Assembly: GCA_016868775.1 (NCBI GenBank)
Contig: VGFT01000001.1
Location: 372,001-436,000 of the forward strand
DNA: 64,000 bases
Source: Bacteroidota bacterium
GTDB lineage: Bacteria; Bacteroidota; Bacteroidia; Chitinophagales; Chitinophagaceae
Direction: 5' to 3'
The first letter of the stretch is position 1. Each line of letters opens with the position of its first letter. The position numbers and the translations under genes are program-made. The notes beneath the pieces were generated by a model, which was not told the DNA's origin, made no database searches, and saw only the letters and a list, made by a program, of their open reading frames with translations. Positions 4,165 to 53,813 of this stretch are shown here, in pieces.

Positions 4165-4217
4165 AAGTTTAGGGTTTAACAATAAAACCTAAACGCTGTT
4201 CTCTAAATGCTAAACGT
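4154..4217. repeat. TTTAGGG-type intergenic word island, copy 1
   Basis: Array of GTTTAG/GTTTAGGG words on the left and CTAAAC words on the right, between convergent genes. The leftmost CGTTTAG overlaps the last codons of the peroxidase gene, and the right arm ends 8 nt from the PorP/SprF stop. The arms are imperfectly complementary and could fold as a hairpin acting on both transcripts. The same words recur in four other intergenic places in this window. Confidence 0.7.
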
Positions 4218-8345: not shown

Positions 8346-11300
8346 TTATCGGAGAATGGTCACCGATCCGCTAAGGGGTTTAAATCCATTTTTTAATTGT
8401 ACGATATAATAATACGTTCCTACAGGCAAGGGCTTACCGTCTCGAGTACCATCCCAGGGCCGGGCATATCCGATCGCATAGTATACCTGCTGCCCGTAGC
8501 GATTGAACACCTCCACCGTGGCACCGGGATAATCGGCCAGGTTGGCAATATTCCAGAGATCGTGAATGCCGTCTCCGTTTGGCGAGAATACATTGGGTAC
8601 GGTTACCAATTTTAAGATCTTAACCATCATTTGGTCTGTAGCCCGACAGCCGAAATTTCCAATGGCCGTTAGCGTATAGGTTTGATCCTGCGTGGCCGTA
8701 AGCACCGGGTTGAGGACCGATGGATCGCTGAGTCCGGTCGGAGGCGACCACTGGAACGTGAGCGTCGGTGAATTGGCCGTGGCCGCCAACGTCAATTGCG
8801 TACCCTGTTGCACGACATAATTTATTCCGGCATCAATGACGGGCTGCAAGTGAACCACAACCGGAAATACAAACGGATCACTCACGCAACCAGCCGTGTT
8901 CGTAACCACCAAGGTTACATTGTAATTGCCCGGTAAGCTGTATCGTTTTGTTGGATTGGCCGTTGAGGCAGTCGTGCCGTCTCCAAAACTCCAATTCCAA
9001 TTTTGCAAGGTGCCGTTGAATGCGGAACTCGCATCGGTGAATCGATTGTCGGCACCCTGACAGAGTTCAGCCGGACTCACTGTAAAGGCCGCATTCGGTT
9101 TGCGAACAAAATTGCTCATGGACTTCACCACTTGTGCCACACATCCGGAGACAGAGGTCGCAATCAGCGTGACGGTATAATTTCCAATGTTATTATACGT
9201 ATGCGTCGGGCTGGCCTGGGTAGAGGTATTGCCATCCCCAAAACTCCATTGATACGTGAGCGGTGTGCCGCCGGGTATGGTGCTTTGATTCGTAAAAGAA
9301 ACCGTACCGCCCGGCATACAGACGGCGGTGGTAGGCAGTGCAAAGTCGGCCACCGGCAACGCATTGACATTAATCGTTTGGGTGGTGGGTAGGCTGATGC
9401 AACCATTGTTGCTGGTAGTGGTAAGTTGCACCGCATACGAACCGGCCGGTGTATAATTTACCGCGAACGGATTCCCATTTGTATTAGAAGGCGTTTGACC
9501 ATTGCCCAGATTCCAATTCCATTGCGAAATGGTTCCCGAAGAAACGGTAGCCGTAGGAGTGATCGTAACAGCTTGTCCCAAACAAACCCCTCCGCTTCCA
9601 GAAAAAGTGAACGTGGAAGTAGGTCGGGGATAAACTTGTATCGAAGAAGTAATGGCCGCCACACAACCGCCGGTGCTGGTGAAGGTGTAGGTGATGGTGT
9701 GGGTACCCGGACCCGCTACACCCGGATCGAATTGTCCAGCTGCATTCGTTCCGGGCCCGCTATATACGCCCGTTCCGGTTACTCCATTCGTTACACTGGC
9801 CGAAGCAATCGAGAAGGCAGCAGCATTCTGACAAACCGGAGTGAGCGCAGCATAACTGAGAACAGGAGTAACCTTGAACGTTGCTTGGATCGTTGTATCC
9901 TTAAAACAACCGTTCGCGGTGGTGGCCTCCAACTTGATCGTGAAGGTTCCCTCCAAATAATTGTGGGTAGGATTTTGGAGGGTGGAAGTGTTGGGATTGG
10001 AGCCGCTGGCATTGGGATCGCCGAAATTCCATAACCAGGTAGCGGATTGTCCGTCGGGAATATTTGTGGTATTCGTAAAGGCAACCGTTCCGATGGCTGG
10101 CAAACAACCGGCAGCCGGAATGGTAAAATTGGTACGGGGACGAGCATGTGCCAAGATGGTTTGCGTGATCGAATCAACACAACCCGTACCGGACGTAAAG
10201 ATGTACTTAATGGTATGCGTTCCGTAACCGGCTTGGGTGGGATTGAATTGTCCGGCCGCCGTCGTGCCTGGTCCGCTGTAGACCCCATTCCCCGTTACCC
10301 CATTGGTAACATTGGCGGTGGCAATAGAAAATGCCGGCGCATTTTCACAAACGGCATTGATCGCCGGATAGGCTAGTGCAGGTTTTAGATTGAAGGTCAG
10401 GTTTTGGGTAGTGGTATCCACACATCCATAGATGGTGGTAACCCAGAACTTGATGGAATAGGTACCTTGTTGATAATTGTGCGATGGATTTTGCAGTGTG
10501 GAGATATTCGGATTGGAGCCGCTGGCATTGGGATCGCCAAAATTCCAATTGTACGCCGAGAAGGTTTGTCCATCAGGCGTACTCGCCGTACCGGTGAATT
10601 GTACGCTGCCGGCGGGTGACAAACAACCCGATGCATTATTGGTGAAATTGACGGTGGGCTTATGGAAAACGGTTACGGTGCGCGTAATGGTATCGGAAAT
10701 ACAAGTGGCACTGGACTTGGTCACGTGATTGATCACATAGGTGCCGGCGACGGGGTAAGTGTAGGTAATGGTTGGACCGTTCGTTACCGTTTGCGTAACG
10801 CCATTGCCAAAATCCCAATACCAGGTATTGACTGCAATGGAAGCGCTCGACGTATCGGTGGCCGTAAATGCCGTTCCGACACAATGTTGGTTCGGGTTGA
10901 CTTTGAATTCCGCAGGCGGACGATCATATACAATGATCTGCTTGAGTGTATCCGAAGCGCAACCATCGGCCGTAACTACGGAAAGTCGAACATCGTTGTT
11001 ACCGGGTGGTAAGGTGCGGGTTTGGTTTTGTCCGCTAACGGAAACATTCCCCGGGAACGTCCAATTAAACGTTTGCACCGTATATCCATTGGGCGTGGGG
11101 GAGCTGCCGGTGAAATTTACCGGATCCAACGTACAGCCCGAATGCGTATAGGTAAAGTCGGCTTTGGGTTTGGCTTTTACAATGATGGCGATGGAAAGAT
11201 CTTCGCGGTTGTAGCAATTTTCAATGGTGGGATGATAGGCTTTCACCGGAATGATAAATGTATCCACGCCGTTGAATACATAGGTACCGGGCAATTCATA

Positions 11301-12977
11301 TTTATAATAGGGTACGCCGTTCACGGAAGTCGTACCGCTCAAGACCGGGTTATTCAAGATCACATCGCTATTGGGGGTGATGTTGCTGCCAAGCGAACTC
11401 AACAATACATCGAGTTTGGTTGGCTGATAGGCCATCAGTACGGACAGCTTCACGGGCGTACCCTGGCAGGTAAACAGATGGATCGGAGTGGAGGGGTCGG
11501 GCGTATTCTGTATTTGACTGAGGGCGCTGAGGTTATTGATAAGCGTACCGGCGTTGTAACCATAACTCTCCACCGATCCCAATCCGTAGGTAATGGCCGT
11601 GAAAGCGGAATCGCTGTACACGACGGCTTGGGATTGAGCGGCCGTCCACCGCTTGACCACAATGGTATATCGACTGTCCTGCGGATGAACGTAACTATGA
11701 TCGAACGTGGTGGTTCCATCGATCCGTAAAGAAGATACGCCCGGTGTGGGGATGATCAGGGTAAGGTAGTTGACTTGTATGGATTCTCGGGTATTTCGAT
11801 AGAAGCCGACGCGTTTGATGCCTTGTTCAACGGGACTAATAAAGATCATTTCCGGATCACCGAGTCCGCTACCCAAACAGTTTCCGCCGGTCATGAATTG
11901 GGCGACCATCACGGGCTTATCGGCCTCGATCACATCGGCCGTACCGCTTTCAAAGAAATAGAAGCTGTTCTGTTGCAGCGTTGTCGGGTTCAGTGTAACG
12001 CCGTTTCGTTTTACCACCGTAGTGGGGTCTTTGACCAGCACCCGATACGAATTGGTCATGAACGTGTTGGCCGCACCCGAGCGAGAAGTGGGTGCCGTTA
12101 GATATTTTTTTCCCCAAGCTTGTATGGGGAAGAGTTGTTGATTGTCGTTGTCGCCCCCACCGCTGCCGCAACTGATGGGGTTGGTGGTACGGCTACTGCC
12201 CGAGAAGGCCGCGATCGGATAACAATCGCCTTGTGCATTGGCGATGGATTTGAATCGGGTGCCGGACACTTCAAGTGAAGAAGATCCTCCGGTGGGATTG
12301 GCCCCGATGATCTGATAGATCTGTCCCTTGTTAAGGCTTACGGTAAACGGAGTACCGGCCGGACGATTCAGTCGAGTCTGTACAGAGGGCGTTACTTCCA
12401 CTACGGTGTTGTCGTGCGAAGCGATCACATACGCCCAAGAGAAACAGTTGGAAGCGTAATTCTGTCGGCTATTCACAGAGATGTATCCATATCCATATGT
12501 TTCAACGGGCATCAGCATCGTGGCGCCGGAAGAGGCGGATCCGAACGTATGTGCATAAGCAACGATGGGCACATCGCTTTGGATTTGAATGGATACATTG
12601 AAAACGCCCTCCCCCCCATTGCCACCAAAGCTGGGAGGCAGGTCGTAGAGTCGACAATCAAGTGAGCCGGACTTAGGCATGAAATTCGAGGGAATCACCG
12701 AGCCGGCAGGCACCACGTAGTTGGTGACTTGTTGGGCTGTTCGCCCACGTACGGTGACGGTAACGTTTGCGGTTTGTTCGGCGCTGAAGTAAAGCACCAT
12801 TTCCTGGGTATTGCCCTGTCCGGGTTCCATGAATTGATGATGTCCATAACCGACCCAGAACTCTTTCCCTTTATTGGAAAGATTTCCTTGGGCATGGGAC
12901 CGCCCGCTGGCGGCCAGCAGGGTGACGACCGCCAGTACGAGGATCCTCGCCTGATTCCAGTTCACGTTACGCATCAT
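8346..12977 (-). CDS. Giant secreted protein: IgGFc-binding-like domain, about seven PKD domains, type B T9SS sorting domain
   Basis: 1543-aa surface or secreted protein. A signal peptide ends at SHAQ. An IgGFc-binding-like region follows (about 35-495), opening with GKEFWVGYGHHQ and containing PVEQGIKRVGFYR and YGLGSVESYGYNAG. At least seven PKD-type repeats come next (cores WNFGDPNASG, WSFGDGN, WNWSFGDGT), interleaved with two Ig-like spacers (NGVYSGPGT). The last 90 residues, from PNVFSPNGDGIHDLW, are a gliding-motility-associated type B C-terminal domain, which directs export through the T9SS. It is the second gene of the operon, 9 nt after the 3-kb-residue neighbour whose IgGFc-like region it shares. 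Adhesion, matrix formation or gliding are plausible roles; no enzyme domain is visible. Confidence 0.85.
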   Translation of the reverse strand: MMRNVNWNQARILVLAVVTLLAASGRSHAQGNLSNKGKEFWVGYGHHQFMEPGQGNTQEMVLYFSAEQTANVTVTVRGRTAQQVTNYVVPAGSVIPSNFMPKSGSLDCRLYDLPPSFGGNGGEGVFNVSIQIQSDVPIVAYAHTFGSASSGATMLMPVETYGYGYISVNSRQNYASNCFSWAYVIASHDNTVVEVTPSVQTRLNRPAGTPFTVSLNKGQIYQIIGANPTGGSSSLEVSGTRFKSIANAQGDCYPIAAFSGSSRTTNPISCGSGGGDNDNQQLFPIQAWGKKYLTAPTSRSGAANTFMTNSYRVLVKDPTTVVKRNGVTLNPTTLQQNSFYFFESGTADVIEADKPVMVAQFMTGGNCLGSGLGDPEMIFISPVEQGIKRVGFYRNTRESIQVNYLTLIIPTPGVSSLRIDGTTTFDHSYVHPQDSRYTIVVKRWTAAQSQAVVYSDSAFTAITYGLGSVESYGYNAGTLINNLSALSQIQNTPDPSTPIHLFTCQGTPVKLSVLMAYQPTKLDVLLSSLGSNITPNSDVILNNPVLSGTTSVNGVPYYKYELPGTYVFNGVDTFIIPVKAYHPTIENCYNREDLSIAIIVKAKPKADFTYTHSGCTLDPVNFTGSSPTPNGYTVQTFNWTFPGNVSVSGQNQTRTLPPGNNDVRLSVVTADGCASDTLKQIIVYDRPPAEFKVNPNQHCVGTAFTATDTSSASIAVNTWYWDFGNGVTQTVTNGPTITYTYPVAGTYVINHVTKSSATCISDTITRTVTVFHKPTVNFTNNASGCLSPAGSVQFTGTASTPDGQTFSAYNWNFGDPNASGSNPNISTLQNPSHNYQQGTYSIKFWVTTIYGCVDTTTQNLTFNLKPALAYPAINAVCENAPAFSIATANVTNGVTGNGVYSGPGTTAAGQFNPTQAGYGTHTIKYIFTSGTGCVDSITQTILAHARPRTNFTIPAAGCLPAIGTVAFTNTTNIPDGQSATWLWNFGDPNASGSNPNTSTLQNPTHNYLEGTFTIKLEATTANGCFKDTTIQATFKVTPVLSYAALTPVCQNAAAFSIASASVTNGVTGTGVYSGPGTNAAGQFDPGVAGPGTHTITYTFTSTGGCVAAITSSIQVYPRPTSTFTFSGSGGVCLGQAVTITPTATVSSGTISQWNWNLGNGQTPSNTNGNPFAVNYTPAGSYAVQLTTTSNNGCISLPTTQTINVNALPVADFALPTTAVCMPGGTVSFTNQSTIPGGTPLTYQWSFGDGNTSTQASPTHTYNNIGNYTVTLIATSVSGCVAQVVKSMSNFVRKPNAAFTVSPAELCQGADNRFTDASSAFNGTLQNWNWSFGDGTTASTANPTKRYSLPGNYNVTLVVTNTAGCVSDPFVFPVVVHLQPVIDAGINYVVQQGTQLTLAATANSPTLTFQWSPPTGLSDPSVLNPVLTATQDQTYTLTAIGNFGCRATDQMMVKILKLVTVPNVFSPNGDGIHDLWNIANLADYPGATVEVFNRYGQQVYYAIGYARPWDGTRDGKPLPVGTYYYIVQLKNGFKPLSGSVTILR

Positions 12978-12986
12978 ATTTTATCC

Positions 12987-15900
12987 TCACCTCACCAGAT
13001 TCACGGAGCCTTTGCGTTGAACGCGTTCTCCGTTGCGCAGCAAGATGTCACATACATAGATATAAACACCGGAAGGTTGTGGTTGCCCCTTGTGGGTACC
13101 ATCCCATGCCAATGCCTGATTGGTTGATTCAAAGATTTTCTCACCCCATTGATTGTACACGGTGAACCGCATGCTGCGGATCACGTTGCTGTATACTTTC
13201 AACACATCGTTCAAGCCGTCGTTATTTGGCGTGAAGCTGTTGGGGATATAGATCTGGTCGGTCACGGTTTGTCCCGTTTCCGGTGCCGAAACAGCCGGGA
13301 TACATCCTCCGTTCGCCCGTACGCGCAGCGTTACAGAAGTACCTAAGGGCAGCCCGGTGAGGGTGTGGGTGAGACCCAAACTTCCGGATGAAGGTGTATT
13401 CCAAGTAGCACCATTATCGATCGAAACCTGATAGGAGGCGGCTCCCGCAACTGCATTCCAACGCCAAGTGATGCTATTGGTGCTGACGGAATCTACCACG
13501 GCGATCGGTGCCACAAGGTTGGGCAGTATGTTGGCATAGGCGCGGTCGCGCGTAGCACTTGGACAGCCATTGATCACGGCTTCGGCCCATACAGACGTGA
13601 GCGCTGTAACGTTGTTCAGCACAAAGGTGGTGCCGGTACCCAGCAGGGTTCCGCCCGTAGCGGCATTGTACCAATTGTAGACGCCTCCGGCCACCGGGTT
13701 TTGGATCGTGAAGGTTGCATTGGCTCCGATACAGACATAAACAGTATCCTGCAAAATGTTAATCGTCGGTCGCGGATTGACCGTAACCGGTTTTGTGGTA
13801 TCGCCGATACATCCATCGGATGCCACCGCACGCAAGCGAACGTTATACGTACCCGGAGCCGCAAAGGTGTACTGCGGATTTTGCAATACAGAAGTTCCGT
13901 TCGTGGGCGGATCATTGAAGTTCCATTGCCAAGAAGTAACCGATACGTTATTGCTCGGTACACAGGTTCCGTTGAATTGGAACGGCGTACCCAAACACCC
14001 GTTGCCCGTTACCGTGAAGTTGGTAAGAGGTGCAGCGATCACATTAATGCTCAGGTTTACTTCTACGGAACCATCGCAACCTTCCAGACTGGGATCGTAT
14101 ACCTTGATGGGAATGGTATAGGTGCCAGTCTGACTGAAAGTATACTGCTGCGGCAGCGTATAGATATAAAATTTACGTCCGTTCACCACCACCGAGTCGA
14201 TCGGCACGGGATTATTCTGCGTCACGTTCGCATTGGGCGTCAGATTCGGAATGCCATTGAGTTGCCATTCGAGTTTGGTGGGACGAAGAGAGATCTGAAT
14301 GGTCATTCTAAACGGCGTTCCTTTACAGGTATAGGAGCTGGTAGCCCCGGTATTGAATACGTTGTTGAACGCAGGTAAGGCGCTCAGGTTCTTAACCAGC
14401 GTACCCGCATTATATCCATAACTCTCTACCGATCCCAATCCGTAGGTGATCGCGTTGAAGGCACTGTCGCATTGAATGGCATGCTGACCCGCCGCTGCCC
14501 CCAAATTATGCCGGACGCAACTATAGCCTGGTAAGTTGGGATGTGCGAACACATCGGTAAAGGCACTTCCGCCATCGATCCGCAATGAAGCCAAGCCGGC
14601 CGTGGACAATACCACGTTGATATAATTCGACGTGATCGCAGACTGATCGGTTGAGTAGAATACGGCTCTTTTGATCCCTTGCTCAATAGGGCTGATGTAC
14701 ATCACCTCGGGGTCGCCGTTACCGGTGGGCGCTGCCAAGCCCGGACAATCGCCTCCGCTGGTAGAAAGCATGTACTGCGCCACCATCACGGGCTTATCCG
14801 ACTCAATATAACTGGCCGTACTGGCACCGGTGCCTGCGGTGATCCCGAATTCATAATAGTTGCCCGGAACAACCAAAGTGGCTGGATTGATAACGACTCC
14901 ATTGCGACGAACAACGGTGGTAGGGTCTTTTACCATCACACGCCACTTGTTGGAATTGTATTGAGTGTTGGAGCCGGAGTTGGCGGTACCAAAGGTTAAA
15001 TACTTGGTACCCCAGGCCTGGTTCGGGAATACTTGCTGAATGAAGTTGTCGCCGTTTGAAATATAACAGATCGCGGTACGACTGCTTCCGGAGAATACGG
15101 CGATCGGGTAACACTTGCCGCTGGCATTGGGAATCGATTTCACCCGACTGCCCGACATATCTGTACCGGTAGAACCGGTAACCGTACCCATCACTTGATA
15201 AACTTGTCCACGGTTCATGTACAACTGGAACGGAACACCAGCCGGACGTCCGCTCTTCGTGGCAACGGCCGGGGTGATCTCTACCAGGGTACTGTCGCGA
15301 TCGGCGATCACGGTGAACCATGAATAGGTGTTAGATGAATAATATTGACTTGAATTGAGCGTAGTGTATTCATATCCCCAAGCACCCGTCGGCAACAACA
15401 ATCCCGCACCCGAAGTAGCACCATCTAAGATATGTGCATACGCTACGATCGGTTTATCGCTCTCAATGCTGATACCGCGGTTGTACAAGCCTTCGTCGGG
15501 GAGACGGGCATCGACCAATCCGTTTTCCGGCATCACGTCACTCACCCGAACCGTATTGGCCGGGATCGCATACGTGCGCACCCAGTTGGTACCATTTACT
15601 TTGACCGTAACATTCGCAGAATCTTCTGCGCTCAAATACAAGACCATGTCCTGTGTGTTTGAGTAGTCCATACTGTAGTGGTGCCCATATCCAACCCAGA
15701 AACGACGACCACGGTTGGAAGTATCGAGTGTGAACGTGGGCGGTGCCGGAGGCGGCGGTGCTTGTCCGTCTGTCATGCCCGTAAACTTGCCCAAATAACT
15801 CAGGTTGCCCTCTGTGATCACATTCATCAATTCATCAACCGAACTGTTGGAAGACACGAACCAAGTACCCGCTGGAATGGTACGTCCCATTTTCACGGTA

Positions 15901-18900
15901 TTTTCTTGCGGGATGTTCCGCATCCAAGGATCGATGTAATACTGACGATTCGTAAAGGCAGTGGGCGTGCTTCCGGTGATGGCCACATCCGTATAATAAT
16001 ACATTGAGGCCTGACCAGTTGCCAGTCCGGGCGGAATCACTCCGGAATAACGACGCACATTCACCCCACTCGGAACCGTTGTTCCCCAAGTGATCTTTTG
16101 CACCGTATCGGTACCAAACATATAATGCTGCGTGATGCCCGGAGCCGGGGCAGCCGGTGTGGCTGGAAGTACCGGTGGAGTTACGGTGGGTAAGAATTCA
16201 TACGCACCCAGATCGGGTACACCGGTGGTAAGCGTGGTGGGGCGAGCCGCACCATTGATATCGGTCGCGTTATCGGAGATCTGTTCTCCGCGCCCATGCA
16301 TGGCCCATACATCCGGATTGTTCACATCGGGCTGCAATTCATCCCCCGTGGAGAACGCGGGTGTATACACGATGGAATTATAATCCCAGTTCTGCGCGTT
16401 GCGCCAATCCTGCAACGTGGCATATCCGGTGGTGCCGAAATTGATCAGGGTTGCGCCGTTCGACTTGAACATGTTGTAGTCGGAATAGATCGCGGATACA
16501 TTCACGTAGTAAGCCGCACGTCCGCCACCGGAGTTATAGAAAATGTTATTCCGAATATTCGATACGCCGGCCGTGATGGTGCTGTGGCTGAAGTAGGCAG
16601 CCACATTCGTAGTGCCGGTTGATGCAGCACTGTTCTGCACCGTGTTGTTGTAATACTTGATGCCACCATTGCCCCCTGTACCATACAATCCATAGGAGGT
16701 GGCCCCGGTGGTTCCAACATTGATCGCGTTGTTGCGGGTGAAATTCCCTTGCATGGTAATCAAATACATTCCGTAGACCGTGCCGGCTTGTATATTCTTC
16801 AGAATCACTTTGTTGTTGGAAACACTTCCGGTATATTGATTGGAGCCACAACCGGTTGCATAAATACCATAGGAGGTTTGAGTGGTGGCACCCCCCATTA
16901 CTTTATTACCATTGACCTGATAGGCGGAGTCTAGATTGTTCGCATATACGCCGTAACCAATGGCAGTACGGGTATCCAATAACGTCACTTCGTTTTTGCT
17001 GACAGAAGTATAGTTGCTATTCGCTACATAAACCCCGTTGTTGTTGAAACCGGAAACAATATTGCTGTCGATGCTATTGTAGGCGGTAACAAGTGTAGCT
17101 GAAGTGCCGGAGAAATAAATACCCTGAGCGCCACCGATCACGGTGTTGCCCTTGATGGTATTGTTCGTACCCACCAGGCTACCAAAGATACCGGCCACGG
17201 TAGTGACGGTTCCGGTATTGGCAGGAGCGATCACGCGACAATTCAGTACGCTGTCAAACGAAGCTATTCCGGCAAATTCAATCGCGCGACCATTCGTGGT
17301 ATTGGTCGCCGTTACCGTAATGCTGCGGAACGTGATGTATTGGGCGCTATCTAACTCCAACACATAGTTGCTGGCAGCAGCCGTAGCATCGTACGTCAGG
17401 TTCACAGACGCTACGTTGCCATTGGCGCTTTGGAAGGTTACGCGGCTGGTGGGCGAGGTGCCGGTGATGCGACGAATACGTACCTGTTCGGTATAGGTAC
17501 CCGGGGCGACGTTGAACGTAACCGGACCACCAATACCGCAATCCATCACCGCAACCGCTTCCGCGAAGGAGTTGAAGTTGACACCAGTGGGATAGTTCGT
17601 GGGTTGTGTGTTGTTGATTGTATACACTCCCGGAGGGAACGGTGGGTTCATGGTTACCTGTACCGCAGTGGAGTTAGCGGTTTGTCCGCTACACGTAACC
17701 ACGCAACGATACCAAAGTGTACCACTTGCCTGTATGATGGTATCAGCAAACAATAAGGGCCCGCCGAGGTTGGTCCACGGACCCGCAGAAGAAGTAGAGA
17801 ATTGCCATTGGAAGGTTTGTCCGGCTCCGGCGGTGTTGGCACTCAGATCCAGCCGAATGGGTGTGCCGATACACATACCAACATTCGGAGTGGCCGTAGC
17901 ATTGCCGGCAGTGGGTGGAGTGATACAGTTTGGTACCGCAAACTCCCACGCACCGATATCCGGGGTTGTGGTACTGCGAGCGGCATTGATAATATCTGTT
18001 GTAATGCCTACCGGCGTACCCTTATTATCCATAGCTACGCTTCTGGGCTTGTAATCCCCTGTGGGCGGATCGGTATAGAATGGGTTCAAGGTAACCGAGT
18101 TGGCGTCTTGCGAACTGGTCGCTTGCCAAGCAGCAAGCGTAGTACGGTTGACCCCATTGTATCCGACGTGCGACTGGGGACCAGTGAGATAGAAATTATT
18201 GTGATTCGAAACAAACGTCGTACCCGTCGTAGAAAAGTACATACCGAATTTGGTTCCTTGTCCGCCCCGTGCGATAGAGATCAGGTTGTTTTTGTATTCC
18301 AATCCGGCCGCTACCGTAACTTGGTAAAAGGCAAAGGCGCTGCTGGTCGTAGAGGCCGTTGCATCGTCGAAGCTGATGGTATTATGATAACACCAGGCAT
18401 TGTCGGAGCTGCTGTTGTATACACCATAGATCGCACCAGCCGATCGAATGTCATAAATAGCGTTGTTGCTGATCACATTCTCCAATCCGCCCAAGGCATC
18501 GACAGAAGTAAGATACACGCCATAGAAACCGGCGGTGGCGCCGGGATCGGCACCAAAGGGATTGAAGATCCGGTTTTTGTTGATGTTCACTTTCACGTTC
18601 AGCGAACTCAGATACACGCCGTAGAATGTGGTGGGGGTGGCGCGGGTGGGACGCGTAAAGCGATTTGATTCGATCTGGGTGTTGAAGTTGCCCAGCAAAT
18701 ACATACCATAGAGATAGAATTCGCGAATCGTATTGTCAATGACCTTGTTATTGCCAACAGAGTTGGTGGTGCTTCCCACCAGTGTGATTCCATAGTAACC
18801 ACCCGTGATGGTATTTTTTTCAAAAATGTTTCCGTCGCTCTCATTCAGTCCGGAGGTGGTCGGCGTATCTCCGGCACTGTTCACGATCCCCGCGAAATTG

Positions 18901-21900
18901 GTAGAGGTAGAGGTCGTGTTCAGGGTAATGGTGCACTTACGAACAATATTGGAATCGGCCCCATTGGTAAGGTGGAAACCATATCCAAATTCGCTGGTGG
19001 TACTTCCTTGAGGCACCACATTCAAACTATCAAAAATGAAATAGTCGGTACCGCTGAGTTTGAAGACCGCACGCTGCGAAGTATTGGTCGACAAGAAGGT
19101 GATGGTCTCGCCATTCCCATTGAACGTAACGGTGTTGGTGGCTGAGGTTCCTTGTACATATGACATGTTCACTTGTTCGTTGTAGGGACCAGAACCAGAC
19201 ACTACATTGAATACGATCGGACCCGTGATACCACAACGCAGTGCCGCATAAGCCGCATTGAAACTGTTGTAGTTGGCACCGGCCGTAGGCTGCAAGCGAT
19301 TGATGGTATAGGTACCGGCCGGGAACAAGGCATTCACCAATACTTGTACTGGTGTGGAGAAGGTTGTACTTCCCGAACACGTAACGGCGCAACGATAATA
19401 CAGGGTGGTAGTGGGATTCAGGTTGTAGTTCGGGTTGTTTTGAGAGCCGCCGATATTGGTCCACGGACCAGCCAAACTCGTAGCCGATTGCCATTGATAG
19501 GTTTGTCCCGTTCCGTAGGAGTTATTGAGAAGCCCCAACGTAATCGGTTCATTCGGACAGATCGGTGCACTCACGCTCGATGTGGCATCACCCGGTGTTG
19601 GAGGAGTGGTACAGGCCGGTACGGCAAACTCCCAAGCACCGATATCGGGTGTAGTAGTACTGCGAGCAGCACCTACTACGTCGTTGGTAACACCTACCGG
19701 TGAACCCAGATCGTTGAGGGCCGGAGCCGTCGGTTTCAGGTTGGCAAGCGCAAAATTCAAATAAGAAGGATCAATGGTTACGGAGTTGGCGTCTTGTGTA
19801 GAGGCCGCTTGCCAGTTGGCCAACGTAGCTTGGTTGGCCGTTCCCCAAACACCGAAGTTGATGTTAGCGGCAGGCGTGAAATAAATGTCGTTGTTATTCG
19901 AAGCGATCACACTGGCCGTTGCGGCGAGGTGAATACCGGCACGAGCGGTACCACCTCCCCGGTTCAGGGTGATCAAGTTGTTTTTGAATTCAATACCGGC
20001 GGCCACGGTGGTTTGATAGAACCCACGTGTCAGCTCGGCCGCAACAGCCGCACTGTTGGCATCATCAAAAGAGATGGTATTGTGGTAGTAAAAAACGTTG
20101 TCAGAACTTACGTTATAGATGCCATAAAGAGATCCATTGCTTTTTATGTCGTAGATGACGTTGTTGGTGACGCGGTTCTCCAAACCGGCCAATGCATCCA
20201 CCCCGGTGAAATAAATACCATATGCATCGTTGGCGGTGGTTATGACAGCATCATACAAACTGTGGATGTAGTTTCCGTTGATCTTGGCATTGGTGCTGAG
20301 TCCCGTGAAATAGATCGCATACACGGAGGTGGAGCTGGTGGTGCGGGTGGGGCGACTCAGATCGTTTCCATGGATTAAAGAATTAAAGGTTCCATTCATA
20401 TAGAATCCGCTGAAATAGAACTCTTGTACTTTATTTCGAAGGAACTGATTGTTCTGGTTGGCGACCGTACTGCTGCCCACATTGGTGACAGAATAATACC
20501 CACCGGTGATCGTATTGTCACTAAAAATATTTCCATCGCAATTGGCACTGCCGGTGGTAGTGGCCGAAGTAGCACTGGAGTTGATCACCACCGGTACGAA
20601 GTTGGTGCTAGTCGATACGGCATTGGATTCTATCGTACACTTACGGAACGTATTGGAATCGGCATCGTTGATCAGGTGCACGGTAAATCCATATTCGGTG
20701 GTTGCCGAACCGGTGGCCGTGATCTGCAAGCTGTCGAATATAAAATGATCGGCCCCGTTCAATTTGATGACAGCGCGTTCGTTGGTGTTGGTGGAGTTGA
20801 ACCGAAGCTGACGACCATTTCCGTTGAAGGTTATCTTGTTGGTAGCGGATGCGCCGAATACGGGTGTGATGATCAGTTGCTCGGTATACGGACCGGAAGC
20901 GGGATTGACGTTGAAGGTAACCGGGCCATTAATACCGCACTTGATATAGTTATACGCATCGTTGAAGCTCGTGAAGTTGGTGCCACCAGTGGGTTGCGCG
21001 CTGTTGATTGTAAAGGTGCCGGAAACCAATCCGGGCGTAGTTACCAAAACCGAAGCGCTGTTAGCAGATTGACTGCTGTTGGAACAAGTGACCACACACC
21101 GATAATAGGTGTTTACTGTTTGGGTGGCGGTATAGAAAGAAGAGGTGGCACCGTTGATGTTGATCCACGTGGTGTTGTTAGGCGACGATTGCCATTGATA
21201 AGAAATGCCGCTGGCAATGGTTTGTCCGCTTAACGTAAGGCTGATGTTTTGTCCGGCACAAGCGAAGATGGGACTAGCCGCCGCGGTTCCGGCCGTAGGC
21301 GCACCGGTACATGCCGTTGCGGGTGTCCAGGCAAAGGTGATATTGGGACGAGTAGTGGCTGTACCATTCTCGGCGGCGGTAGTGGTTCCACAAAGACTAT
21401 TAAGGTCATCGGCACGATAGGTATGTGAACCATTAAAGGCAAGTCCGGTTGTCCACGGAATCACCGGATTCTCCGTCCAGAAGACTGCAGTAGTCGACGC
21501 CGGATCTCCATTACATACTTCGATCATTATATTATCAGAACCATTCCAGTTGAACGTAGCAGGCAACACAAAGGTGTTGATGCCGGTTACGGGTTGATAG
21601 TTGGTGGCTACCGTTGACACGGTGGCGCCGGAGAAAGCATCCCATCCGGCTGCGCCGGCCAACAATGTTGTAGCGGTTGTATGCCCGATGCGAATCTGGA
21701 AACCTTCCACTACGCCGGTGGTGCCCACAGAGATCACGTTGAATTTAATGGCCGTGATCAGTCCAGGCCCCATACCCGCAGCCGTTAATTCCGAGGCGCG
21801 ATATAAATACTGCGCTCGTTGGCCTTCGTAAAAATCCTGCAGGGGACAAGGATACGCGGTGGTACCGTTTCCTACGGTACCGGTGCCAATGTTGACATCC

Positions 21901-21983
21901 AATTGTGCCAGCGATTGCTTGGGTACGCTAAGCTCCATCAATAATGCAATCAATCGGGCAACGAATGGAATGAACCTTCTCAT
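12987..21983 (-). CDS. Giant (about 3000 aa) T9SS cargo: three tandem beta-helix modules, IgGFc-like domain, PKD, FN3, type B sorting domain
   Basis: First gene of the operon. I choose the ATG at 21983 because MRRFIPFVARLIALLM begins a signal peptide; the ATG at 22016 adds 11 residues. After an N-terminal domain (to about 230) come three tandem modules of about 560-580 residues. Each has an Ig-like part (TYQWQSATSLAGPW), a TYTIN...QPT linker and a right-handed beta-helix rich in Asn, closing in DIGAWEF or DLGAYEF. Then an IgGFc-binding-like region (about 2100-2560, RRFWVGYGHHYS), PKD (about 2660), an Ig-like domain, FN3 (about 2835) and a type B sorting domain (IPNSFTPNNDGLNDVL). Beta-helix arrays suggest glycan binding or an elongated stalk. 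The catalytic role, if any, is unknown. Confidence 0.85.
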   Translation of the reverse strand: MRRFIPFVARLIALLMELSVPKQSLAQLDVNIGTGTVGNGTTAYPCPLQDFYEGQRAQYLYRASELTAAGMGPGLITAIKFNVISVGTTGVVEGFQIRIGHTTATTLLAGAAGWDAFSGATVSTVATNYQPVTGINTFVLPATFNWNGSDNIMIEVCNGDPASTTAVFWTENPVIPWTTGLAFNGSHTYRADDLNSLCGTTTAAENGTATTRPNITFAWTPATACTGAPTAGTAAASPIFACAGQNISLTLSGQTIASGISYQWQSSPNNTTWININGATSSFYTATQTVNTYYRCVVTCSNSSQSANSASVLVTTPGLVSGTFTINSAQPTGGTNFTSFNDAYNYIKCGINGPVTFNVNPASGPYTEQLIITPVFGASATNKITFNGNGRQLRFNSTNTNERAVIKLNGADHFIFDSLQITATGSATTEYGFTVHLINDADSNTFRKCTIESNAVSTSTNFVPVVINSSATSATTTGSANCDGNIFSDNTITGGYYSVTNVGSSTVANQNNQFLRNKVQEFYFSGFYMNGTFNSLIHGNDLSRPTRTTSSTSVYAIYFTGLSTNAKINGNYIHSLYDAVITTANDAYGIYFTGVDALAGLENRVTNNVIYDIKSNGSLYGIYNVSSDNVFYYHNTISFDDANSAAVAAELTRGFYQTTVAAGIEFKNNLITLNRGGGTARAGIHLAATASVIASNNNDIYFTPAANINFGVWGTANQATLANWQAASTQDANSVTIDPSYLNFALANLKPTAPALNDLGSPVGVTNDVVGAARSTTTPDIGAWEFAVPACTTPPTPGDATSSVSAPICPNEPITLGLLNNSYGTGQTYQWQSATSLAGPWTNIGGSQNNPNYNLNPTTTLYYRCAVTCSGSTTFSTPVQVLVNALFPAGTYTINRLQPTAGANYNSFNAAYAALRCGITGPIVFNVVSGSGPYNEQVNMSYVQGTSATNTVTFNGNGETITFLSTNTSQRAVFKLSGTDYFIFDSLNVVPQGSTTSEFGYGFHLTNGADSNIVRKCTITLNTTSTSTNFAGIVNSAGDTPTTSGLNESDGNIFEKNTITGGYYGITLVGSTTNSVGNNKVIDNTIREFYLYGMYLLGNFNTQIESNRFTRPTRATPTTFYGVYLSSLNVKVNINKNRIFNPFGADPGATAGFYGVYLTSVDALGGLENVISNNAIYDIRSAGAIYGVYNSSSDNAWCYHNTISFDDATASTTSSAFAFYQVTVAAGLEYKNNLISIARGGQGTKFGMYFSTTGTTFVSNHNNFYLTGPQSHVGYNGVNRTTLAAWQATSSQDANSVTLNPFYTDPPTGDYKPRSVAMDNKGTPVGITTDIINAARSTTTPDIGAWEFAVPNCITPPTAGNATATPNVGMCIGTPIRLDLSANTAGAGQTFQWQFSTSSAGPWTNLGGPLLFADTIIQASGTLWYRCVVTCSGQTANSTAVQVTMNPPFPPGVYTINNTQPTNYPTGVNFNSFAEAVAVMDCGIGGPVTFNVAPGTYTEQVRIRRITGTSPTSRVTFQSANGNVASVNLTYDATAAASNYVLELDSAQYITFRSITVTATNTTNGRAIEFAGIASFDSVLNCRVIAPANTGTVTTVAGIFGSLVGTNNTIKGNTVIGGAQGIYFSGTSATLVTAYNSIDSNIVSGFNNNGVYVANSNYTSVSKNEVTLLDTRTAIGYGVYANNLDSAYQVNGNKVMGGATTQTSYGIYATGCGSNQYTGSVSNNKVILKNIQAGTVYGMYLITMQGNFTRNNAINVGTTGATSYGLYGTGGNGGIKYYNNTVQNSAASTGTTNVAAYFSHSTITAGVSNIRNNIFYNSGGGRAAYYVNVSAIYSDYNMFKSNGATLINFGTTGYATLQDWRNAQNWDYNSIVYTPAFSTGDELQPDVNNPDVWAMHGRGEQISDNATDINGAARPTTLTTGVPDLGAYEFLPTVTPPVLPATPAAPAPGITQHYMFGTDTVQKITWGTTVPSGVNVRRYSGVIPPGLATGQASMYYYTDVAITGSTPTAFTNRQYYIDPWMRNIPQENTVKMGRTIPAGTWFVSSNSSVDELMNVITEGNLSYLGKFTGMTDGQAPPPPAPPTFTLDTSNRGRRFWVGYGHHYSMDYSNTQDMVLYLSAEDSANVTVKVNGTNWVRTYAIPANTVRVSDVMPENGLVDARLPDEGLYNRGISIESDKPIVAYAHILDGATSGAGLLLPTGAWGYEYTTLNSSQYYSSNTYSWFTVIADRDSTLVEITPAVATKSGRPAGVPFQLYMNRGQVYQVMGTVTGSTGTDMSGSRVKSIPNASGKCYPIAVFSGSSRTAICYISNGDNFIQQVFPNQAWGTKYLTFGTANSGSNTQYNSNKWRVMVKDPTTVVRRNGVVINPATLVVPGNYYEFGITAGTGASTASYIESDKPVMVAQYMLSTSGGDCPGLAAPTGNGDPEVMYISPIEQGIKRAVFYSTDQSAITSNYINVVLSTAGLASLRIDGGSAFTDVFAHPNLPGYSCVRHNLGAAAGQHAIQCDSAFNAITYGLGSVESYGYNAGTLVKNLSALPAFNNVFNTGATSSYTCKGTPFRMTIQISLRPTKLEWQLNGIPNLTPNANVTQNNPVPIDSVVVNGRKFYIYTLPQQYTFSQTGTYTIPIKVYDPSLEGCDGSVEVNLSINVIAAPLTNFTVTGNGCLGTPFQFNGTCVPSNNVSVTSWQWNFNDPPTNGTSVLQNPQYTFAAPGTYNVRLRAVASDGCIGDTTKPVTVNPRPTINILQDTVYVCIGANATFTIQNPVAGGVYNWYNAATGGTLLGTGTTFVLNNVTALTSVWAEAVINGCPSATRDRAYANILPNLVAPIAVVDSVSTNSITWRWNAVAGAASYQVSIDNGATWNTPSSGSLGLTHTLTGLPLGTSVTLRVRANGGCIPAVSAPETGQTVTDQIYIPNSFTPNNDGLNDVLKVYSNVIRSMRFTVYNQWGEKIFESTNQALAWDGTHKGQPQPSGVYIYVCDILLRNGERVQRKGSVNLVR
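16195..21340 (-). repeat. Three tandem modules of about 1.7 kb inside the giant gene
   Basis: Module ends are marked by near-identical DNA encoding DIGAWEFAVP: around 19,625 and 17,937 the sequences are nearly the same, and a diverged form occurs around 16,195. Spacing is about 1.69 and 1.74 kb. The first two modules are closest at protein level (FDSL, TNTSQRAV, NAIYDI blocks); the third is more diverged. Confidence 0.75.
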
Positions 21984-22016
21984 AATATCGATTTTGGTTT
22001 TGCGATAATAAATCAT

Positions 22017-23053: not shown

Positions 23054-23173
23054 ATTTAGGGTATTTAGGGTTTAGGGTTTAGGGAGCAACGTTTAGCGAA
23101 TAATCTTGTTACTGTATTTGATATTTTTTTGGGCTAAACACTAAACCCTGTGCTCTAAACAGTGTTCTCTATA
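23054..23173. repeat. TTTAGGG-type intergenic word island, copy 2
   Basis: Left: a run of TATTTAGGG/TTTAGGG words. Right: CTAAACACTAAACCCTG and CTCTAAAC words. About 30 nt of AT-rich spacer lies between. Read on the minus strand, the stop codon of tcdA (TAG) sits in GTATAGAGAACACTGTTTAG, a variant of the island's edge sequence. It separates tcdA from the phosphoribosyltransferase pseudogene. Confidence 0.75.
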
Positions 23174-23792
23174 CAATCATATCTCGTATCGCTACAGACG
23201 CGCACACCGCTCCGAATACGGCCGGCAGGTAGGAGATAGTACCGTAGGCGGATTTCTTAAAATTTTTTCCATCGGTGAGCATGAGGCTTTTTTTGATGGG
23301 TTCATCGGGGGAGAAAACGACTTCCAATCCTTTTCGGATACCGTAGCGCGATTTGAGTTGTTTTCGGATCTGTTGGGCGAAGGGGCAGTTATAGGTTTCA
23401 GAAATATCAACTACTTGGAGGCGGGTAGGATCCAATTTGGCACCAGCGCCCATGCTGCTTACGAGGGGGATTTTTCGTTCCAGCGCGGTTTTGATAAAGG
23501 TGATCTTGGGGGTGATGCTATCGATGGCATCGATCAAATAGGTGGGTTGGGAAGCGAGAGAGTCAAGTACTTGTTCGGGGCGTATGAAGGAATCGATGAC
23601 GTTCAAATCCAATTCCGGATTGATGGCTTTTAGGCGTTCGGCCATGATGGCCGCCTTTGAAATCCCGTGGTTGGTGGCCAGGGCGGGAAGTTGTCGGTTG
23701 CGGTTGGTGGGATCGACCACATCACCGTCGATGATGGTCATTTCCCCAATGAGCAATTGGGTTCGGGAGAGCCAGGACAGATCGGTGGTCAT
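23169..23792 (-). CDS. tcdA: TcdA-like tRNA t6A dehydratase with internal deletion of the nucleotide-binding loop
   Basis: E1-like (ThiF/MoeB superfamily) enzyme that normally uses ATP to cyclise t6A37 of tRNA to ct6A. The start at 23792 gives MTTDLSWLSRTQLLIG, the usual N-terminus. The ORF-track start at 23912 adds a non-homologous extension. Family features downstream are clear: TIIDGDVVDPTNRNRQLPAL, DAIDSITPK, SSMGAGAKLDPT, and FKKSAYGTISYLPAVFG at the C-terminus. However, LLIG is followed at once by EMTIIDGD. The roughly 35 residues that should lie between, including the GxGGVGS Rossmann loop, are absent, giving 207 aa instead of about 245. The reading frame is kept. ATP binding should be lost, so the product is probably inactive. 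It may equally be annotated as a pseudogene. Confidence 0.8.
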   Translation of the reverse strand: MTTDLSWLSRTQLLIGEMTIIDGDVVDPTNRNRQLPALATNHGISKAAIMAERLKAINPELDLNVIDSFIRPEQVLDSLASQPTYLIDAIDSITPKITFIKTALERKIPLVSSMGAGAKLDPTRLQVVDISETYNCPFAQQIRKQLKSRYGIRKGLEVVFSPDEPIKKSLMLTDGKNFKKSAYGTISYLPAVFGAVCASVAIRDMIV

Positions 23793-27959: not shown

Positions 27960-28008
27960 CCAACTCCCAAACTGACCAAACTAACCAAACTCCCAAACTA
28001 ACCAAACT
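27957..28008. repeat. CCAAACT-word intergenic array, copy A
   Basis: Starts at the TAA stop of the GH10-like gene (TAACCAACTCCCAAACT) and continues as about five CCAAACT/CCCAAACT words at 8-9-nt spacing up to 7 nt before the next ATG. The same words occur in the opposite orientation at 46,572-46,604. Confidence 0.7.
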
Positions 28009-34945: not shown

Positions 34946-35032
34946 GGGTTTAGTATAAAATATTTCTCTGTAAAGAATTATAATTCAATGCTAAACCCTA
35001 AACCCTGTTCTCCAAACCTAATTCTCTAAACA
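34946..35032. repeat. TTTAGGG-type intergenic word island, copy 3
   Basis: A single GGGTTTAG word on the left, an AT-rich spacer of about 35 nt, then CTAAACCCTAAACCCTGTTC, TCCAAACC and CTCTAAACAG on the right. The most asymmetric copy, with one arm mostly lost. Lies between two plus-strand genes, about 80 nt after the PAP2-like stop. Confidence 0.7.
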
Positions 35033-46618: not shown

Positions 46619-47035
46619 ATGAAGTTTTTAGTTGTAGCGTTTGTGTTGGGATTGATTTCGTTTCAAGCCTTGGGGCAGGAGGCGGAGATACGGGCATTAT
46701 TGGCTAAGCAAACGGAGGCCTGGAATCGGGGCGATGTGGAAGGGTTCATGGAGGGGTATTGGAAGAATGATTCTCTGATGTTTATTGGCAAATCGGGGAT
46801 TACGTATGGCTGGCAACAAACGCTGGACAATTACAAGAAAGGATATCCGGATAAAACGGCGATGGGGCAACTGACCTTTACCCTGATCGAAATGAACCTC
46901 CTCTCGAAAAAATATTTCTCCGTCGTCGGAAAATGGCACCTGAAACGAACCATCGGTGATCTAAGCGGACACTATACCCTTCTTTTGAAAAAGATCAAGG
47001 GGAAATGGGTGATTGTGAAGGATCATAGTAGTTAG
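46619..47035 (+). CDS. Secreted NTF2-like (SnoaL/DUF4440-type) protein
   Basis: 138 aa with a signal peptide ending ALGQ. The mature part is a single cone-shaped alpha/beta domain: IRALLAKQTEAWNRGDVEGFMEGYW, then YGWQQTLDNYKKGYPDK, and strands ending KKIKGKWVIVKDHSS. This is the NTF2-like DUF4440/SnoaL-type pattern found in ketosteroid isomerase relatives and small ligand-binding proteins. No catalytic residues can be assigned. It lies between two word-array islands and has no evident operon partner. Confidence 0.85.
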   Translation: MKFLVVAFVLGLISFQALGQEAEIRALLAKQTEAWNRGDVEGFMEGYWKNDSLMFIGKSGITYGWQQTLDNYKKGYPDKTAMGQLTFTLIEMNLLSKKYFSVVGKWHLKRTIGDLSGHYTLLLKKIKGKWVIVKDHSS

Positions 47036-47043
47036 AGTGAATT

Positions 47044-47128
47044 GTCCGCTGTCCACCGGCCGCAGTCCGCGGAGATTGGATATTCGACATTGGACTGCAT
47101 CGGACACCGGACTTCGGACATTGGACTA
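47044..47128. repeat. GTCC/GGAC-word intergenic island
   Basis: Left: GTCCGCTGTCCACCGG and AGTCCGCGG. Right: GGACTGCATCGGACACCGG, then CGGACATTGGACTA. The arms are inverted relative to one another, like the TTTAGGG islands. GACATTGGACT occurs twice. Read on the minus strand, the stop of the small membrane protein (TAG) is the start of TAGTCCAATGTCCG. Lies between convergent genes. Confidence 0.65.
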
Positions 47129-47353
47129 CTTCGCTGCCCTCAACCGAAACAAATACCGAATCAATCCAAAAAGGGCAACAGCTACACAGATATAATAGAT
47201 CAAGCAAACCCAAAAGGGGTAGCGTTCGGGAAAGGCCAATCCAAAATAAAAACCTATGGTGGCGGAACCGATCATCCAAATGAGGGTCCACGTCAAGGCA
47301 TTAATGATACGTATAAAAAACCGGCTTACTTGGGGATCCCAACCTTGTTCCAT
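47126..47353 (-). CDS. Small two-helix membrane protein
   Basis: 75 aa. N-terminal amphipathic part (DPQVSRFFIRIINALTWT) running into two hydrophobic segments (about 20-40 and 46-66) and a basic end (RYLFRLRAAK). No family is recognised with confidence. The start codon context, coding-like composition and a 26-nt spacing after the GH25 gene support a real gene at the end of the uvrD-GH25 operon. The stop lies at the edge of the GTCC-word island. Confidence 0.6.
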   Translation of the reverse strand: MEQGWDPQVSRFFIRIINALTWTLIWMIGSATIGFYFGLAFPERYPFWVCLIYYICVAVALFGLIRYLFRLRAAK

Positions 47354-47379
47354 AGTATAGATATCAAGTCATAACAGAA

Positions 47380-50678: not shown

Positions 50679-51173
50679 ATGGGCATTCGCATTTTCATTA
50701 CGGGAGGAACCTTTGATAAAGAATACAATGAGTTAACCGGACAGTTGTATTTCAAAGACACACATCTGCACGACTTACTGGAGTTGGGTCGTTCCCGGCT
50801 AGACGCGGAGATCCGTACCCTCATGATGATCGATAGTTTGGAGATGTCGGACGAGGACCGCGAGCTGATCGCGCATCAGTGTAAAAATTGCGACGAGGAC
50901 CGAATCGTGATCACACACGGAACCGACACAATGGCCGAAACGGCCGACTACTTACAAAAACACGTTGCCGGAAAGACGATCGTCCTCACCGGCGCCATGA
51001 TCCCCATCAAATTCGGAAGTTCAGACGGGCTGTTCAACCTCGGCTCAGCCTTGGCTTTTGCTCAAACACTGCCCGCTGGCATATATGTGGCCATGAACGG
51101 TCGCTATTTCGTTGCAGGAAATGTACAGAAGAACCGAGAGAGCGGAACGTTTGAAGAGAAAAAGAGCGTTTAG
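50679..51173 (+). CDS. Single-domain asparaginase-like protein
   Basis: 164 aa from the ATG at 50679 (MGIRIFITGGTFDKEY); the ORF track counts an upstream TTG. Only the N-terminal alpha/beta domain of asparaginase is present: catalytic Thr in GGTFD, the second Thr/Asp pair in THGTDTMAETADYL, and the Lys region TGAMIPIKFGSSD. It stops at about residue 164, where classical asparaginases continue for another 150 residues. Short asparaginase-domain proteins exist as a family in other bacteria, so this may be natural. However, its stop codon TAG is part of a TTTAGGG-type word island, so recent truncation cannot be excluded. Confidence 0.8.
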   Translation: MGIRIFITGGTFDKEYNELTGQLYFKDTHLHDLLELGRSRLDAEIRTLMMIDSLEMSDEDRELIAHQCKNCDEDRIVITHGTDTMAETADYLQKHVAGKTIVLTGAMIPIKFGSSDGLFNLGSALAFAQTLPAGIYVAMNGRYFVAGNVQKNRESGTFEEKKSV

Positions 51174-51258
51174 AGAATAGGGTTTAGTGTTTAGCAATGA
51201 ACATAAATCTTTAAGAAATATGTTATGGAACTAAACCCTAAACCCTGCTCCCTAAACG
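51167..51258. repeat. TTTAGGG-type intergenic word island, copy 4 (best inverted pair)
   Basis: Left arm CGTTTAGAGAATAGGGTTTAG plus TGTTTAG; right arm CTAAACCCTAAACCCTGCTC plus CCTAAACG. The two arms align over about 27 nt with few mismatches, separated by about 38 AT-rich nt. The TAG in the first word is the asparaginase stop codon. The right arm ends 6 nt from the stop of the convergent OmpA gene. Confidence 0.8.
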
Positions 51259-53020: not shown

Positions 53021-53734
53021 ATGGTTTCCCTCGGTAATTTTTTCTTCAAACACCGCAACTGGCTGTTCATCGCCTTCTATGCAGCCCTTTTTCTACCCTC
53101 GCCAAAACTGTTCCCCCGCGCTATGGAAGGTTGGGCCATCGGAATTGGGCTTACGATCACCATTCTGGGACAGTTGGTACGCGGGCTCACCATCGGCCTT
53201 GCCTACATCGTTCGGGGCGGAAATGAAGGAAAGCCCTATGCCGAAGGCCTGGTGACCGAAGGAATCTTCCGGCACTGTCGCAACCCGCTTTACGTGGGAA
53301 ACATTGGAATGCTTCTGGGCGTAGGCATTCTAGCCAACTCCCTATACTATGTGGCTATCATAATCCCCCTTTTCCTATTCATCTACCAAGCCATCGTATT
53401 GGCCGAAGAAGATTTTCTTAGAAAGAAGTTCGGACCCGGCTTCGATCAGTATTGCCAAGATGTAAACCGCTGGTGGCCACGACTAAAAGGGCTTTCTCAA
53501 ACCCTTAGCAGTATGGAATTCAACTGGAAGCGCTGGATCCTGAAAGAACATACCACCCAATTCATCTGGCTTGCGGGTATAACATTATTGCTTTTTTTAA
53601 ACTACCCCGAGCTAACCGGAAACAACCCCGACTGCCGCAACAACTGGCTGATCGGAATCTTTTCCGGCTTGATTATCATATACGCATTGATCAGAAGATG
53701 GAAGAATCGCGAGCATTTACGGAACAACGTTTAG
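53021..53734 (+). CDS. Isoprenylcysteine/phospholipid methyltransferase-family membrane protein
   Basis: 237 aa with about five membrane segments. The C-terminal-half motif EGLVTEGIFRHCRNPLYVGN, followed by GMLLGVGILANSLYY and EEDFLRKKFGPGFDQYC, is the ICMT/PEMT-like SAM-binding signature (RHPxYxG-type, here RNPLYVG, and EExxL). It likely methylates a lipid, thiol or small membrane substrate; which one is unknown. It lies 4 nt after cmoA, so it may share its SAM context by chance or in function. The stop TAG is inside the first word of a TTTAGGG-type island. Confidence 0.85.
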   Translation: MVSLGNFFFKHRNWLFIAFYAALFLPSPKLFPRAMEGWAIGIGLTITILGQLVRGLTIGLAYIVRGGNEGKPYAEGLVTEGIFRHCRNPLYVGNIGMLLGVGILANSLYYVAIIIPLFLFIYQAIVLAEEDFLRKKFGPGFDQYCQDVNRWWPRLKGLSQTLSSMEFNWKRWILKEHTTQFIWLAGITLLLFLNYPELTGNNPDCRNNWLIGIFSGLIIIYALIRRWKNREHLRNNV

Positions 53735-53813
53735 AAAACAAGGTTTAGCAAATAACAGCATCGTGTACGATTTCATCGTTAAGGACCTAAACGCTAAACC
53801 CTAAACACTAAAC
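53728..53813. repeat. TTTAGGG-type intergenic word island, copy 5
   Basis: Left: CGTTTAGAAAACAAGGTTTAG. Right: CCTAAACGCTAAACCCTAAA plus CACTAAAC. Spacer about 33 nt. The TAG in the first CGTTTAG is the stop of the upstream methyltransferase gene (ending NNV). Lies 11 nt before the nfu -7 element. Confidence 0.75.

Follow-up and report, generated by a model that had tools for sequence, protein, structure and literature searches.

REP elements lie at the 3' ends of genes, heptamer repeats of the STRR type occur in cyanobacteria, Correia elements are an example of a MITE, and the TRAP-bound RNA leader carries 11 NAG triplets at a fixed spacing, which are read by one protein. REP units are imperfect hairpins of 20-40 nt, tagged by GTAG or CGTC at one end. 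REP/BIME sequences are small dispersed extragenic palindromes present in many copies, for which roles in supercoiling, transcription termination, and mRNA stability have been proposed (PMC3733652). The TAACTGA repeats of Beggiatoaceae and some Cyanobacteria and Bacteroidetes are direct, and occur mainly just upstream of start codons (PMC4679880); MITEAba12 is a further MITE (PMC6382973). In an open-access literature search of incomplete coverage, we found no description of facing rows of words around a core at gene 3' ends, and the Bacteroidota literature on such arrangements comprised only papers on direct heptamer repeats and on REP.

The window analyzed here is a 64-kb stretch (C1:372001-436000, forward strand) of G000, a 2.03 Mb Bacteroidota genome with PorP/SprF (type IX secretion system), and it holds five islands of the word GTTTAG and its inverse. 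These islands are REP/BIME-like in place and copy number, MITE-like in copying, and heptamer-repeat-like in their rows, and they depart from each of these classes in a tested defining feature. As with REP/BIME, copies are numerous, scattered through extragenic DNA, and located mostly at 3' ends, but the arms are rows of 6-nt words with a free linker and without an internal hairpin or a GTAG/CGTC tag, no RAYT (the criterion for the GTAG type) accompanies them, and the stem is not co-maintained. As with heptamer repeats (LSSR/STRR), tandem head-to-tail 7-nt units are intergenic and lineage-restricted, carry stops in all frames, and sometimes overlap the upstream stop codon; however, those repeats have a uniform unit without an inverted partner, whereas island arms are inverted around a core. 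Unlike TAACTGA repeats, the rows face each other at 3' ends, with a free linker base and a pitch of 7, 8, or 9 by lineage. The islands share with MITEs a short, non-autonomous-looking form, terminal inverted repeats with a core, and copies at unrelated loci, yet they show no target-site duplication, and their slots are refilled by arrays of other words rather than left empty. Intrinsic (Rho-independent) terminators likewise lie directly after stop codons and can fold, but they are nearly mutually exclusive with islands in G000 and its relative G007; their GC-rich stem, short loop, and T run are rarely present at island ends, where the loop is ∼38 nt and the arms are not kept complementary. Telomere-type repeats are made by a reverse transcriptase, for which G000 has no PF00078 match. 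The likeness to the TRAP leader (short words ending in AG, a set pitch, irrelevant linker bases) is an analogy only, given that the islands have another pitch and inverted arms, and that no TRAP gene is expected.

Results

A sequence-only reading had placed five islands in the window, and a recheck of the letters found all five where it had put them. GTTTAG occurs 15 times on the plus strand and 19 times on the minus strand of the 64 kb, with 25 of the 34 occurrences inside the islands; the islands themselves are assigned no strand. Island 1 (4155-4215) has GTTTAG at 4155 and 4167, a short 16-nt core (4173-4188), and CTAAAC at 4189 and 4210; it lies between convergent genes for cytochrome c peroxidase (+) and PorP-SprF (-), and a word overlaps the final codons of the ORF ending at 4164. 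Island 2 (23055-23174) begins with word variants from 23055 and continues with GTTTAG at 23070, 23077, and 23091, a 37-nt core (23097-23133), and a right arm of CTAAAC at 23134, 23141, and 23155 plus the variant CTATAC, which contains the stop of a ThiF/TcdA-like gene; this minus-strand stop falls within GTATAGAGAACA. Island 3 (34948-35031) has a single left word, a 37-nt core (34954-34990), and right words at 34991, 34998, and 35026, and is set between tandem genes, a PAP2-like gene 84 nt before it and recA 134 nt after it. In G007, the same slot has an identical architecture and a recognizably related core.

Island 4 (51168-51257) combines a left arm (51168-51194) of three GTTTAG words and GAATAG, a 36-nt core (51195-51230), and a right arm (51231-51257) between convergent asparaginase-domain and OmpA-family genes. 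Its slot holds an 8-nt GATGAG array in G007 and a hairpin terminator in G014, while the ompA slot of other species holds rows of TGAGTAA, AGTTAGT, TACGAA, or AGACGAA, or plain hairpin terminators. Island 5 (53729-53813) has a left arm at 53729-53748, a 38-nt core at 53749-53786, and a right arm of four CTAAAC words at 53787-53813; it follows a PEMT-family gene and precedes a NifU-like gene in tandem. In both islands 4 and 5, the TAG of the first GTTTAG is the stop codon of the upstream gene (ORF ends at 51173 and 53734). The overlaps with stops and final codons at islands 1, 2, 4, and 5 thus agree with the earlier description. The exact form GTTTAGAGAACA is absent from the window, but GTTTAGNGARCAGNGTTTAG has 34 matches genome-wide against 0 for the reversed control. 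The window has no Rfam 15 match at the gathering score, and a known structured RNA family was ruled out on that ground. Genes were called by a custom script, and its coding calls in the window match the ORF list; G014 genes were called with the G007 model.

The window also contains other features. A 3009-aa ORF (12987-22016, minus strand) lies beside a 1543-aa ORF (8346-12977), upstream of a PorP/SprF gene; the two may encode large proteins that the type IX system secretes or places on the surface. A second family of words, CCAAACTNN (GTTTGG on the opposite strand), has period 9 and is found at 27966-28008 and in 12 other G000 gene gaps, and at L081:19771 it forms two arms around a core. A third family, GTCCAAT/GGACATT, with period 7, occupies G000 gene gaps in the window (47035-47378) and at L067:16346, L079:1044, and L086:2714.

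Across the 2.03 Mb of G000, GTTTAGNGTTTAG has 83 matches versus 2 for the reversed control, and the looser pattern GTTTAGN{2,30}GTTTAG has 103 versus 23; these fall into about 40-45 island clusters. A period-7 signal is present in 25 of 259 gaps and in 0 of the shuffles. The islands are real, genome-wide, and far above chance. They are non-coding palindromes of roughly 60-130 nt, typically about 90, in which 6-nt words separated by a single free nucleotide form a row that is followed by an AT-rich core of ∼38 nt and then by the inverted row. From the outer edge, the usual order is GTTTAG, GARCAG, GTTTAG, (GTTTAG), so that GARCAG mostly takes the second place, and all two-armed islands have the forward words first and the inverted words second. 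In 29 of 46 islands the core measures 35-40 nt, with a mode of 38. The right arm is just as long in tandem pairs, in which that side has no gene end; the symmetry is therefore a property of the element rather than a response to local need.

Because islands were located by their inner word, word conservation is partly ascertained and only the outer heptads are informative. When heptads are numbered outward, starting next to the word that anchors the alignment, information at the first G is 1.79 bits in heptad 1 and 1.55 bits in heptad 2; the final AG reaches about 1.55/1.65 and 1.25/1.41 bits, respectively. The middle positions carry 0.5-0.95 bits, a low value since GTTTAG and GARCAG alternate, and the linker base only 0.17 and 0.35 bits. 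The word is therefore kept while the linker base drifts.

The arms of an island at L098:46-237 in G007 are 138 nt apart instead of about 38 nt, and the densest cluster (L071, G000 C2:90000-110000) has six islands in 12 kb, spaced 1.5-4 kb. A scan of all GTDB genomes with the exact pattern returned 29 stretches, of which ∼15 are estimated to arise by chance; single matches were not used, and some stretches show true heptad rows. Period-7 rows of GTTTAG, GAGCAG, GTTCAG, and GTTGAG appear in L048, L059, L061, L063, L064, and L053, which come from Neomarinimicrobiota, other gut Bacteroidetes bins, and a Planctomycetales bin.

The data on gene context, terminators, and orthology come from the window and from stretches selected for the islands that they contain. 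Among gaps of 60 bp or more that these G000 stretches include, islands occupy 12 of 37 convergent, 20 of 128 tandem, and 4 of 71 divergent gaps; this choice biases the share of gaps with islands upward, while comparisons between gaps within the stretches are unbiased. In tandem pairs, the median distance is 4 nt to the upstream stop and 45 nt to the downstream start. Of 28 tandem islands, 25 are nearer the upstream stop (Wilcoxon p = 1.5e-5) and 26 lie at -22 to +20 nt from it. The adjacent stop is inside the island in 11 of 38 cases, and TAG stops are enriched (16/38 at islands versus 63/432 elsewhere, p = 1e-4). At several islands, the right arm abuts a TAnnTTTG promoter, such that the whole space from stop to promoter is filled. 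About four or five islands are in divergent gaps, one of them directly after a tRNA.

The relative G007 has a median protein identity of 88% to G000. Where neighboring genes are conserved, its gaps hold an array in 19 of 22 cases in which G000 has one, versus 5 of 68 in which G000 has none (Fisher p = 4e-12). For the 14 GTTTAG islands with conserved neighbors, G007 keeps GTTTAG in 6 and has other words in 8 (among the replacements are GATGAA, GATGAG, GTTGAG, GTAGAG, and GTTCAG), and no slot is empty; all 14 hold an array. The lysS slot in G007 is a hybrid, in which GATGAA words have overwritten the left arm together with some of the core, while the right half is orthologous. Unit number also changes, as at L070:15401, where orthologous islands have 4 and 7 right-hand words. 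Across 42 genomes of the genus, GTTTAG words are spaced by a linker of 1 in G000 (83 matches) and G007 (37), of 2 in G012 (60), G027 (52), and G062 (59), and of 3 in G014 (31) and G065 (12). Other spacings are nearly missing in each species, with the exception of 14 linker-1 matches in G027, and reversed controls give almost no matches in the same genomes. Facing GTTTAG arrays are also present in sequences of G012, G014, and G027. The retention of facing arrays at the same gene ends, with other words and spacing, suggests a fast-changing and undescribed gene-end signal.

The cores are related to one another, with 18 pairs scoring at least 14 versus 0.55 expected from shuffles. The island after lysS (C1:233480-233570) and the island at C1:247361 share a 90-nt block of 90% identity with sharp edges, flanks without similarity, and unrelated gene pairs on either side; the element therefore disperses, and at least one 90-nt copy has moved between unrelated gene pairs. 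At C1:247361, the new copy sits beside remnants of an older island that match the orthologous G007 island. A simple inversion of the orthologous core at L070:7321 was considered and dropped, as the G000 slot is a newly arrived copy with remnants of the old island. In G007, the core AACTTTTGACCTACCAA is common to the GATGAA-row islands of two separate loci (L178:8325 and L197:11653, minus strand); other word families therefore also seem to disperse as units.

The flanks carry no target-site duplication (mean longest flanking repeat 1.09 versus a null of 1.06), and they are not complementary above shuffled pairing. Profile searches for mobility genes covered two families. RAYT transposases (Y1_Tnp, PF01797) had 0 matches in G000, G007, and G014, which rules out a RAYT/REPtron origin, and reverse transcriptases (RVT_1, PF00078) had no match in these three genomes or in G061 and G065, on which basis a telomerase-like or other reverse-transcriptase origin was rejected. 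Plasmid carriage was likewise rejected, with no match.

Canonical terminators are scarce at islands: in G000, 2 of 42 island 3' ends have one, compared with 30 of 115 array-free ends (p = 0.003), and in G007 the counts are 0 of 14 versus 58 of 172 (p = 0.006). Arrays of other words in G007 are similarly terminator-poor (2/43); the background in divergent gaps is 4/55 and 6/108. In G019 and G027, arrays of other words coexist with terminators (5/10 each). Although the islands can fold (mean z -3.8, with 38 of 45 below -2), the complementarity of arms is no higher within islands than between them (14.4 versus 15.7; 99.4% of permutations at or above the observed value), and the stem is therefore not the kept feature. 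Stem co-evolution was rejected on this result, and the lower value within islands also fits an avoidance of perfect palindromes.

Discussion

To the observed anatomy, placement, copying, slot persistence with word replacement, terminator scarcity, and unmaintained stem pairing, we would add an inferred reader, termination role, and mechanism of spread. Tentatively, and with somewhat less than even confidence, we propose that the islands are dispersed palindromic 3'-end elements, the words of which would be read by a putative factor, stand in for terminators, and turn over rapidly. The functional units would be the conserved words rather than the stem. The sense transcript of the upstream gene would expose these words directly past the stop codon, where a factor may read them, at the pitch of the lineage, in a single-stranded molecule that is most probably nascent RNA. 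By forming or protecting a 3' end, such a factor would allow the array to replace a hairpin terminator, and each symmetrical copy could serve both strands. New copies and new words would spread via copying and recombination between islands, with slippage shifting the number of units.

A competing account, which we consider unlikely but still a serious contender, holds that the islands are selfish or neutral miniature mobile elements (MITE- or REP-like) with repeat-rich terminal inverted repeats, which survive only where they are harmless, between stop and promoter. Landing would destroy terminators, and the words would serve for recognition by a transposase whose gene lies elsewhere or has been lost; the terminator scarcity could indeed reflect elements that inserted into terminators and destroyed them, rather than replaced their function. 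A discrete 90-nt unit copied between loci, shared core ancestry, and arms that are symmetric whatever the gene context all speak for mobility. Against it are the lack of a target-site duplication and of Y1_Tnp, as well as the 14 G007 slots, none of which is empty and where a different array is found instead, an outcome that selfish insertion does not predict. An origin in place, in which terminator hairpins give rise to functionless arrays through slippage during replication and local correction of quasi-palindromes, was already disfavored and is improbable. The differing unit numbers of orthologous islands agree with slippage, and so does the statement attributed to Mrazek et al. (2007) in PMC4679880 that, among long simple repeats, those of period 7 are the most frequent in the majority of the prokaryotic genomes studied. 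On the other hand, the same word recurs at ∼40 loci with freely varying linkers, the polarity is strictly inward, the core length is common to the islands, and units are copied between loci. Quasi-palindrome correction would moreover make arms more alike within an island, where they are less so (p = 0.994 for the predicted direction).

The capacity of the arms to pair and the scarcity of canonical terminators would be accommodated if the islands were long-loop, bidirectional terminator hairpins with the stem as the conserved feature. We regard this as very improbable given the lack of excess complementarity within islands, the ∼38-nt loop, left and right words that differ in some relatives (GTTGAG/GATGAG versus GTAGAG in the L066:5634 slot), and the lack of a consistent U tract by eye. 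Lastly, a telomerase-like activity might have added G-rich words to both 3' ends of a break, the joining of which would give head-to-head arrays, as in telomere fusions. The G-rich strand does run inward in every GTTTAG island and, among the 145 arrays that show a clear strand bias whatever their word, in 105, and the overwriting of the lysS island in G007 extends up to a point within the core. Nevertheless, the fixed core length and shared core ancestry argue against healed ends, and with PF00078 missing from all five genomes searched this origin is unlikely; taken together, we give it almost no weight. The resemblance of the words to plant telomere repeats, which had been put down to chance, is probably just that, as the searches turned up no reverse transcriptase and the slots are also filled by other words.

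The suggestions of the sequence-only reading can be weighed accordingly. A REP-like or mobile palindrome at gene ends is borne out in placement (25/28) and in dispersal (the 90-nt copy and related cores), but not as a RAYT-driven REP, and a slippage-driven array accounts for changes in unit number and not for words shared genome-wide. Its third suggestion, a new 3'-end element, is plausible because intrinsic terminators are scarce at island ends and slots persist in a relative. It is doubtful, and in our estimation rather improbable, that the islands typify an undescribed class of bacterial 3'-end elements in which facing rows of words have a lineage-set pitch of 7, 8, or 9 nt and a co-evolving reader, with the slot kept while the code is rewritten between sister species.

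A slot that is kept while its words and pitch change rapidly is unusual in bacterial intergenic DNA, and this pattern looks as if a code and its reader had co-evolved, or as if copying itself were driving the change. If the islands are only mobile, they would represent a mobile family without a known mover. If the arrays end transcripts, standard terminator prediction would miss part of the gene ends in this group of bacteria.
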